From positions 1 through 35,033 of the forward strand of contig JAFDDT010000008.1 of NCBI GenBank assembly GCA_019310725.1: a stretch of DNA of 35,033 nt, written 5' to 3'. Below are positions 20,457-22,595 of this stretch, one piece after another. This DNA comes from Deltaproteobacteria bacterium. GTDB taxonomy: Bacteria; Desulfobacterota; DSM-4660; Desulfatiglandales; B25-G16. How positions within the stretch are numbered: position 1 is the stretch's first letter; the number at the start of each line of letters is the position of its first letter. Under the pieces are notes generated by a model that worked only from the letters and a program-made list of their open reading frames with translations, made no database searches and was not told the origin of the DNA. Made by a program: the position numbers and the translations under genes.

Positions 20457-20640
20457 AGAACTTTTCCTTTCGTTTATCTCTCTTTCTAATTAAACTTTTG
20501 TGCGGGAAAATTCAAGTAACAATTCAGGATTTTGGATATTTGATGGGGGGTTTAGAAAAGATGTGAGCAGCCTAAAAATCCCATACCCTGGACTTTGACG
20601 TTACTCTGCGAGAAATCCGTCCCAAGTGGATCGGTGGAAC

Positions 20641-21573: not shown

Positions 21574-21649
21574 TGGAGGCGGCAACCGGATTCGAACCGG
21601 TGTCAAACGGTTTTGCAGACCGCTGCCTTAGCCACTTGGCTATGCCGCC
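21574..21649 (-). tRNA. tRNA-Cys (GCA)
   Basis: Read on the minus strand, a full cloverleaf: acceptor GGCGGCA paired with TGCCGCC, anticodon loop CTGCAAA (GCA), T-arm GGTTCGAATCC, discriminator U and an encoded CCA. It lies five bases downstream of tRNA-Gly and just before the M23 peptidase gene. Confidence 0.97.
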
Positions 21650-21654
21650 CTTCC

Positions 21655-21730
21655 TGGAGCGGGAAACCGGACTTGAACCGGCGACCGTCACGTTGGCAAC
21701 GTGATGCTCTACCAACTGAGCTATTCCCGC
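21655..21730 (-). tRNA. tRNA-Gly (GCC)
   Basis: Minus-strand cloverleaf: acceptor GCGGGAA with TTCCCGC, D-arm GCTC...GAGC, anticodon stem TCACG/CGTGA with loop TTGCCAA (GCC), T-arm with TTCAAGT, discriminator U and an encoded CCA. It is first of a two-tRNA unit with tRNA-Cys. Confidence 0.97.
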
Positions 21731-21741
21731 AAATTCTCATT

Positions 21742-21771
21742 GTTCCTACTATTTCCCCAAAGGAATGTCAA
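21742..21771 (-). promoter_or_regulatory. Candidate promoter of the tRNA-Gly/tRNA-Cys unit
   Basis: On the minus strand a perfect TTGACA lies at 21771..21766. About 17 bases on is TAGGAACAAT, a weak -10 element. The tRNA-Gly 5' end follows about 15 bases later. The first two bases of TTGACA belong to the 10-bp duplication flanking the neighbouring mobile element, so the insertion left the box intact. Confidence 0.45.
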
Positions 21772-21779
21772 GGTTTTTT

Positions 21780-22029
21780 CAGGATAACGTCAAAGTCCAG
21801 GGTATGGGTATCTTTTTTTTGGTTATGCCCTATAACATGGCCCCTTGCTGGGTCGATTCAAAATGGTTTATTGAGCCATAAGCCTTAGAATCATACGCTC
21901 TATCTATATAAACCATTTTGAAACGCCCACTGATCTAGACTATGTGGGGCATAATCCAAAAAAAAGATACCCATGCCCTGCAAGAAGCTTAAGAATCAAT
22001 AGGTTAGGTTTCACTATGACGTGGCTCTG
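21780..22029. mobile_element. MITE-like element, copy 2 (complete, 250 bp)
   Basis: The element has long inverted terminal arms, 21799..21830 against 21947..21979, about 32 bp each with few mismatches. The outer ends are also inverted (CAGGATAACGTCAAAGT against CAGAGCCACGTCATAGT, 12 of 17 matching). An internal palindrome lies around ATTCAAAATGGTTTAT. It is flanked by an exact 10-bp direct repeat, AAGGTTTTTT, at 21770..21779 and 22030..22039. It has no coding capacity. The right duplication overlaps the pgsA stop codon, so it inserted directly behind pgsA. A related interrupted copy lies at 2..370. Confidence 0.8.
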
Positions 22030-22037
22030 AAGGTTTT

Positions 22038-22595
22038 TTAGAAGAGAAGGTTTTTAGTTATTCGAAAGTATGTCCAGCCAGACCAGAGCGTCAAAACTAA
22101 AGCCACCCAGAGAAAGACCATTCCAACAACATGGAAGTTGATCTGTAGATATTCGTAATGGAGACAGAGGCATATGAGGGTCACCGATTGGAAAATGAAT
22201 TTGTATTTTCCAAGTGCGCTTGCTTCAATGACCTGCCCCTCAACCGCAGCGATACTCCTCAATCCCGTCACTGCCAATTCCCTTGCAACAATCACCATAA
22301 CCACCCATGCGGGGATCCTGTTGAGAGTCACGAGCATGATCATAGTGGCCGAGACCAGCAATTTGTCTGCCAGCGGATCGAGGAACTTACCGAGGGTAGT
22401 CACTACGCGGTACCTTCGAGCATAAAATCCATCGAGGAGATCTGTTACAGCAGCGAGTCCGAAACATAGGGCAGCTAAGAAACTCCCCGTTCTTCCGGGA
22501 AAATAAAGGCAGATAACCACTAGAGGAATCAACATCAGCCTCAGGGTACTCAAATGATTTGGGAGGTTCGTTGTTTGCCTTTGATTTTCGTCCAT
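22038..22595 (-). CDS. pgsA: CDP-diacylglycerol-glycerol-3-phosphate 3-phosphatidyltransferase
   Basis: An inner-membrane enzyme making phosphatidylglycerol phosphate, the committed step to phosphatidylglycerol and cardiolipin. The 185-residue length is normal. The CDP-alcohol phosphotransferase signature is complete: Asp52, Asp55-Gly56, Ala59-Arg60, Gly69, Asp73 and Asp77 in the DG-x2-AR-x8-G-x3-D-x3-D spacing. About five membrane helices are visible, and GLRSIAAVEG is typical of PgsA. Its stop codon lies inside the 10-bp duplication made by the adjacent mobile element. It starts 11 bases after the lytic transglycosylase stop, in one operon with it. Confidence 0.95.
   Translation of the reverse strand: MDENQRQTTNLPNHLSTLRLMLIPLVVICLYFPGRTGSFLAALCFGLAAVTDLLDGFYARRYRVVTTLGKFLDPLADKLLVSATMIMLVTLNRIPAWVVMVIVARELAVTGLRSIAAVEGQVIEASALGKYKFIFQSVTLICLCLHYEYLQINFHVVGMVFLWVALVLTLWSGWTYFRITKNLLF

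Follow-up and report, generated by a model that had tools for sequence, protein, structure and literature searches.

The 250-bp feature that adjoins pgsA in the window (the whole 35,033-nucleotide stretch of the deltaproteobacterial contig JAFDDT010000008.1 that was analysed) is confirmed as a mini-transposon that has no genes and many relatives, and -35 boxes tend to be found at a fixed spacing beyond the L ends of its family, which is new here. The tendency of this MITE family to insert at a constant distance upstream of promoters suggests guidance by the transcription machinery. It is likely that the copy at pgsA was in place before the closest relatives split and that insertion of the family is promoter-directed and oriented, probably with RNA polymerase as the guide.

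The element and its insertion site

The element occupies positions 21780-22029 (plus strand), with its L end (21780) toward the promoter of a tRNA unit and its R end (22029) toward pgsA. Its ends carry CAG-N4-ACGTCA and are flanked by exact 10-bp copies of AAGGTTTTTT, at 21770-21779 on the tRNA side and at 22030-22039 on the pgsA side. The terminal repeats are CAGGATAACGTCA on the left (21780-21792, plus strand; family consensus CAGGGTAACGTCAAAGTCC) and CAGAGCCACGTCA on the right (22017-22029, minus strand; family consensus CAGGGCCACGTCATAGTGAAACC), and their tips read CAGGA and CAGAG compared to CAGGGTAACGTCA and CAGGGCCACGTCA in the consensus of the family. Further inward, two outer hairpin arms (21798-21822 and 21956-21980, plus strand) are complementary at 24 of 25 positions, and two complementary inner arms (21851-21871 and 21908-21928, plus strand) belong to a centre that is inverted in some copies. 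A long hairpin is predicted for the 250 bp, with -106.7 kcal/mol on the plus strand (z -10; 0 of 200 shuffles as good) and z -8.7 on the minus strand. The exact duplication at both borders, the long inverted arms and the inverted outer ends (CAGGATAACGTCA against the complement of CAGAGCCACGTCA) had all been described in an earlier note on this DNA and were recovered. Being 250 bp long with no internal ORF of at least 80 aa, the element lies within the size of a MITE (below 500 bp, without a transposase gene), and terminal inverted repeats and target duplications are present in dispersed copies as well.

On the R side, pgsA (CDP-diacylglycerol--glycerol-3-phosphate 3-phosphatidyltransferase; 22038-22595, minus strand; TIGR00560, 161 bits against a cut-off of 109) ends in a minus-strand TAA that takes the first two bases of one AAGGTTTTTT copy. 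On the L side, the genes for tRNA-Gly(gcc) (21655-21730, minus strand) and tRNA-Cys(gca) (21574-21649, minus strand) are preceded by a TTGACA box at 21771-21766 (minus strand), located 8 bp beyond the L end, that takes the last two bases of the other copy. A -10-like TAGGAA follows 17 bp on (21748-21743). This -35/-10 pair was missed by a generic promoter scan; the promoter of the unit reads TTGACA-17-TAGGGA and TTGACA-17-TAGGAA in two relatives with an empty site (L067 and L068, respectively). The duplication thus feeds both the stop codon and the promoter, as claimed earlier, and both are unbroken. The intact neighbourhood, taken earlier as a lucky fit, in part reflects a habit of the family, whose L ends tend to favour a fixed spacing upstream of -35 boxes, although the window copy lies about one helical turn nearer than most. 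Another trace of the family, a solo 29-bp L end, is located at 20580-20608 (minus strand), between secA and an M23 peptidase gene, with no evident promoter on its outward side.

The history of the site can be followed in the closest pgsA relatives, which are metagenome-assembled genomes labelled Deltaproteobacteria, Desulfobacteraceae, Desulfobacterales or Pseudomonadota. The empty site that the earlier note proposed to look for is found in L067 and L068 (pgsA identity 76% and 74%), in which the stop codon TAA is followed by a single AAAAAACCTT and then GACA, with no insert. In L051-L053 (pgsA identity 92-94%), the R end of the element lies behind pgsA at the same place as in the window, and the insertion therefore predates the divergence of these relatives. 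L052 matches the window at both borders and has a further insert inside the element; a run of N follows the R end in L051, so that the far side is unseen; and in L053, where the centre is inverted compared to the window copy and the L end is next to other DNA, the copy may be rearranged. The site is also empty in L054-L056, where TTGACA lies 11-12 bp past the position that corresponds to the duplication; which promoter the window insertion met is therefore not certain.

A dispersed family of mosaic elements

The earlier note had suggested a search for further copies, and these are abundant in the source genome (a 3.9-Mb draft in 343 contigs). Used as a query, the element gave 116 matching pieces, and the exact end pattern CAGGGNNACGTCA occurs 94 times compared to 2 times for the reversed control, so that a few of the 94 may be due to chance. 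The boundaries of copies elsewhere are unchanged from those in the window; together with the empty sites, this means that neither outcome named as refuting in the earlier note was seen. A strict two-ended set comprises 39 copies of 44-469 bp (40 before a double pair, C232:6257-6609, was dropped); it replaced a looser first pairing of 118 pairs, many of them spurious. At a fixed length of 10 bp and with at most one mismatch, a duplication flanks 18 of the 39 copies and 0 of 1482 mismatched flank pairs. When the best-fitting length of 9-11 bp is taken, the duplication is identical in 13 of 39 copies and has at most one mismatch in 23 of 39; it is mostly 10 bp long in the family, with 11 bp (L005) and 9 bp (L072) also seen. 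The duplicated sequence varies by copy (AATATTGCAT, GGAGTGGTTC and CGTGAATAGT among others), and since the same anatomy recurs with different duplicated 10-mers, the duplication in the window is not a chance repeat. The ends of the family can be written as CAGGGNNACGTCAWAG. In a sample of 99 genomes that includes the source genome, a match was found in 20, including 16 of the 18 genomes that belong to the taxonomic family of the source genome. Plasmids and phages contained no DNA relative of the 250-bp element. In viral contigs, a 17-mer gave 0 matches and two 16-mers gave 8 and 16 matches, without partner end or duplication, which were judged by eye to be chance.

The elements are mosaics. 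Beside the 250-bp form, there are 151-152-bp copies without part of the centre, end-only copies of 66 bp and 44 bp, and copies with extra modules. The end-only copies carry 10-bp duplications with 0 or 1 mismatch (L167 1603-1646; L075, L085, L091) and are near the shortest length able to hold both ends. Among 63 distinct complete copies in the examined stretches, the centre is as in the window in 28, inverted in 10 (e.g., L028, L011, L115, L018, L072 and L053) and lost or different in 12; in the other 13 it was judged on one half only (10 as in the window, 3 inverted). Given that the centre is inverted in 10 of 63 copies, the hairpin arms may allow inversion or exchange between copies. Internal modules, namely a CGCCTGCCCGCC hairpin and a CTGGCCCAGACCTGG block, recur in many copies (L071, L102, L083, L104, L155, L157 and L163) as elements nested in elements. 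Some copies (L071, L101, L102, L161 and L166) are apparently inserted in another dispersed repeat (GCCCTAAGGGC ... TTTTGACATCGCC), which has its own TTGACA-like box inside.

Spacing between L ends and promoters

Spacing was expressed as an offset, the number of bases between the element end and the first T of TTGACA, read outward. A total of 285 end flanks was collected, 127 from the source genome (13 of 140 had been dropped earlier) and 158 from other genomes. Regions of the other genomes were selected by their end sequence and by the space left up to the contig end, before inspection of the flanks, and sample part of the exact end sites (20 regions for 48 sites in G003, 10 for 33 in G002 and 10 for 30 in G001). 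After removal of 56 flanks that shared a 13-mer with a kept flank and of 2 with N, 227 flanks were kept, 124 of L type and 103 of R type; the R set takes in a few internal look-alike ends (type R2, e.g., C115:55168).

An exact TTGACA within 30 bp outward was found in 12 of 78 flanks, compared to 1% at random positions and 1 of 78 in the opposite reading; 3 of these 12 flanks (C12, C49 and C220) sit in another repeat family. At offset 18, at least five of six TTGACA positions are matched in 31 of 124 L flanks (15 of 64 in the source genome and 16 of 60 in other genomes), with a tail probability of 3.5e-37 at a background of 0.0078 per offset; 2 of the 31 (C12 and L219) lie in another repeat family holding a TTGACA-like box. 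Offsets 17 and 19 account for 11 and 5 flanks, and other offsets below 60 for 0-4 each. The position logo of the L flanks shows T65 T65 G52 (percent) at 18-20 and an A/T-rich, TATAAT-like block at 41-47. Where a good -35 box is present, a -10 box (at least four of six) follows 16-18 bp past it in 34 of 47 cases, compared to 251 of 1222 at other positions of these flanks. The majority of L flanks (77 of 124) stay below five of six at 17-19 and have no good -35 box there; in 49 L flanks with a poor -35 box, the count of TATAAT-like sequences peaks at offset 41 (12 of 49), modestly above the next offset (9).

The spacing is biased towards the L end. A -35 box (at least five of six) at 17-19 is found in 47 of 124 L flanks and in 6 of 103 R flanks (Fisher p 4e-9). 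Among the 39 two-ended copies of the source genome, 12 L flanks and 3 R flanks have such a box, and among the source-genome copies with a duplication of at most one mismatch the numbers are 8 of 23 and 2 of 23. With a 12-point -35 score of at least 8, a weak R peak can be seen at offset 18 (9 of 103, with 5 at the next offsets, compared to 42 of 124 for L). As a negative control, 17 distinct flanks from viral contigs were read, and none has a -35 box at 17-19.

The window copy has the usual orientation, with its L end toward the tRNA promoter, but its -35 box is at offset 8 instead of 18, about one helical turn nearer than in most copies of the family. Exact TTGACA boxes at offsets of about 7-11 are found in 4 of 124 L flanks, the window copy included (0.57 expected, p 0.003), and these few cases suggest a minor spacing class near 7-11. 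In all genomes, a TTGACG lies 8 bp inside the tip of the L end, and TTGACA in the target is likewise 8 bp away from the duplication; after insertion, the two form a direct repeat at 32 bp, which may or may not be relevant to how the target is read.

A second family of the order

In genomes of a second family of the order (G049 and G076, with single cases in G083 and G047), elements have the ends CAGGGAAACGTCAAAG and interiors that do not resemble those of the first family. A total of 41 ends was sampled (20 regions for 44 matches in G049 and 19 for 28 in G076), one of which (L321) is of the first type. An exact 10-bp duplication flanks 12 elements (7 in G049, 4 in G076 and 1 in G083) and a duplication with one mismatch another 5; several of the G049 copies are 195 bp long. 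The spacing recurs here: after one of the 41 flanks was dropped, 14 of 40 non-redundant flanks have a -35 box at 17-19, and 9 of 40 have it at offset 18 (p 2e-13). Because little beyond the end sequence is common to both sets, the spacing follows the ends and, most simply, the transposase. Taken together, the L-end spacing, the bias between L and R ends and the repeat in a second family make insertion look oriented and promoter-directed.

Search for the transposase

The transposase sharing CAG-N4-ACGTCA ends, which the earlier note had proposed to search for, did not turn up. The stretches surrounding most of the 94 end occurrences yielded no autonomous copy, in draft genomes in which many interiors are cut by contig ends (the search left out ends on C105, C146, C155, C240, C278, C298 and C305). 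The longest two-ended copy has 469 bp at a limit of 600 bp, and the examined stretches contained no family copy of 600-6000 bp with a duplication. Candidates in this range were rejected, four rows of L099 being locus-edge artefacts and two others the ISAs1 element of L130/L137. A 1478-bp stretch with both ends (G004:254104-255581), which resembled an insertion sequence, was likewise discarded, since it contains a host-like ORF flanked by two separate copies and lacks a duplication. The ISAs1 transposase (NF033564) was found in 0 of 18 genomes of the family, the source genome included, many of which are incomplete drafts, and 14 DDE_Tnp_1 loci of the genus gave scattered single near-matches and no paired ends with a duplication.

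Comparison with known systems

In their ends, the MITEs resemble ISAs1 elements, for which CAGGG ends and a 10-bp duplication are described (PMC11946415). The consensus tips CAGGGTAACGTCA / CAGGGCCACGTCA start with CAGGG and the target duplication is 10 bp, as in an ISAs1 element of the same order (L130) that has 15-bp ends CAGGGCAATCGCATG and an exact 10-bp duplication ACTGGGAAGT. Ends of CAGGG, CAGGA or CACGG type together with an exact 10-bp duplication were seen at 8 of 15 ISAs1 loci (7 of 14 plasmid loci, these being 14 of 60 listed among 865 records); one plasmid locus (L348) has a shifted, low-complexity duplication. The inner terminal sequence is ATCGCAT in ISAs1 elements compared to ACGTCA in the MITE family, and a -35 box at 17-19 is present in 0 of 16 flanks of 8 bounded ISAs1 elements, a small and partly GC-rich sample.

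In its target choice, the family resembles certain Mutator-like elements, whose promoter-directed transposition is presented as an unusual property in the sections of PMC3942029 used here. TnGBS/ISLre2 (p-MULT 3) and the ISKra4 group (p-MULT 4) insert at a fixed distance upstream of sigmaA promoters, with an orientation set by the asymmetry of both ends, and contact with the RNA polymerase initiation complex was proposed for TnGBS/ISLre2 by analogy with Ty3 (PMC3942029). By this account, they carry a transposase, have 8-9-bp duplications and lie 13-17 bp upstream, whereas the MITE family is gene-less, has a mostly 10-bp duplication and lies at 17-19 bp. The distance from the promoter-proximal cut to the -35 box is 8 bp in the MITE family (18 minus 10) and 7-8 bp in TnGBS/ISLre2 (16 minus 8-9; subtraction made here from the figures in PMC3942029), and this shared geometry suggests the same kind of guide. 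The family thus behaves as promoter-targeting transposons such as TnGBS/ISLre2 do and has ends like ISAs1; membership in either is not claimed. Literature searches, judged mostly by title, returned no paper title on a promoter-spaced MITE or ISAs1 element.

Among prokaryotic MITEs, the Correia elements of Neisseria have ends that differ from those of the present family and a TA target duplication. They are described as MITEs near genes that are reported to invert, and fixed spacing to -35 boxes is not mentioned for them in the consulted part of a review that also covers MITEs of about the size of the 250-bp element (PMC10969869). Chunjie of Geobacter uraniireducens, a 235-bp MITE with many full and partial copies and size variation (PMC10969869), is like the present family by description only, and the same part of the review does not mention fixed promoter spacing for it.

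Proposed mechanism of insertion

Ends, duplications, copy number, empty sites, fixed spacing and orientation bias can be read from the sequences themselves; we infer that targeting rather than selection causes the spacing, that RNA polymerase would be the guide and that the transposase would be supplied in trans. In the proposed course of events, a non-autonomous DNA transposon would have entered between pgsA and the tRNA-Gly promoter by a 10-bp staggered cut. The machinery would tend to leave about 18 bp between the L end and a downstream sigma70 -35 hexamer, with the promoter-proximal cut 8 bp upstream of this hexamer. With the alpha C-terminal domains of RNA polymerase positioned near -43 and -53, the cut would fall between these domains. 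Most likely the transposase, or a complex formed by it, contacts promoter-bound RNA polymerase. The asymmetry between L and R ends would set the orientation of insertion, and the transposase would act in trans on the gene-less copies.

Several other explanations have to be weighed against this one. That the 10-bp repeat arose by chance around a structured intergenic region has practically no probability and is already refuted; the duplication does hold a low-complexity T-run, but dispersed copies, independent 10-bp duplications and empty sites bear out the transposon-like insertion between the pgsA stop codon and the tRNA promoter that had been proposed from the window. It is quite improbable that an ordinary MITE with random target choice acquired its spacing by selection, insertions between or inside promoter boxes being lost as lethal to the genes. 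The data contain no unselected insertions, and solo L ends facing promoters are expected if promoter-ward deletions were lost; purging, however, predicts a broad range upstream of the -35 box and not a peak of 1-3 bases around 18, this narrow peak is present in two sets with different interiors, and the bias between L and R ends is left without a reason. It also seems unlikely that the L end is a binding site for a regulator and that copies were kept where they lie just upstream of a promoter and aid transcription, as a mobile regulon. Solo L ends of about 29 bp located 17-19 bp upstream of promoters (C47, C64:26481 and C291:8317) would fit this explanation, and a fixed helical phase is typical of activator sites, but R ends have a weak peak at the same spacing though R differs beyond the first bases, and the second-family MITEs have little in common with the first family apart from the end sequence. 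The weak R peak at offset 18 favours cutting geometry over a binding site in the L end.

A further question within promoter-directed insertion concerns the mobilising enzyme, which could be a Mutator-like transposase (p-MULT 3 or 4: ISLre2, TnGBS, ISKra4) and not an ISAs1 relative, a possibility that falls somewhat short of even. Promoter-directed, oriented insertion is described for exactly these elements, with a cut-to--35 distance close to the 8 bp found here (PMC3942029). Fixed, oriented spacing upstream of -35 boxes is indeed found family-wide, at 17-19 instead of 13-17; but the duplication is 10 bp in most copies and not 8 or 9 bp as described for these elements in the same paper, and a CAGGG start with a 10-bp duplication matches ISAs1 elements, whose transposase (NF033564) is absent from the genomes of the family that were searched.

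Implications

It is conceivable, though held tentatively, that an ISAs1-type lineage (CAGGG ends, 10-bp duplication) gained RNA polymerase-guided, oriented integration by itself, convergent with the Mutator-like TnGBS/ISLre2. Such a lineage would drive several MITE families with unlike interiors to sites immediately upstream of many promoters (some two dozen can be detected in the source genome), in at least two families of the order. The present results place a mini-transposon family in sulfate reducers. If promoter-directed insertion is true, a gene-less family with other ends and another duplication length would offer an independent system for how a transposase reads a bound promoter, and it would explain how a genome can carry many insertions beside its promoters without losing them.
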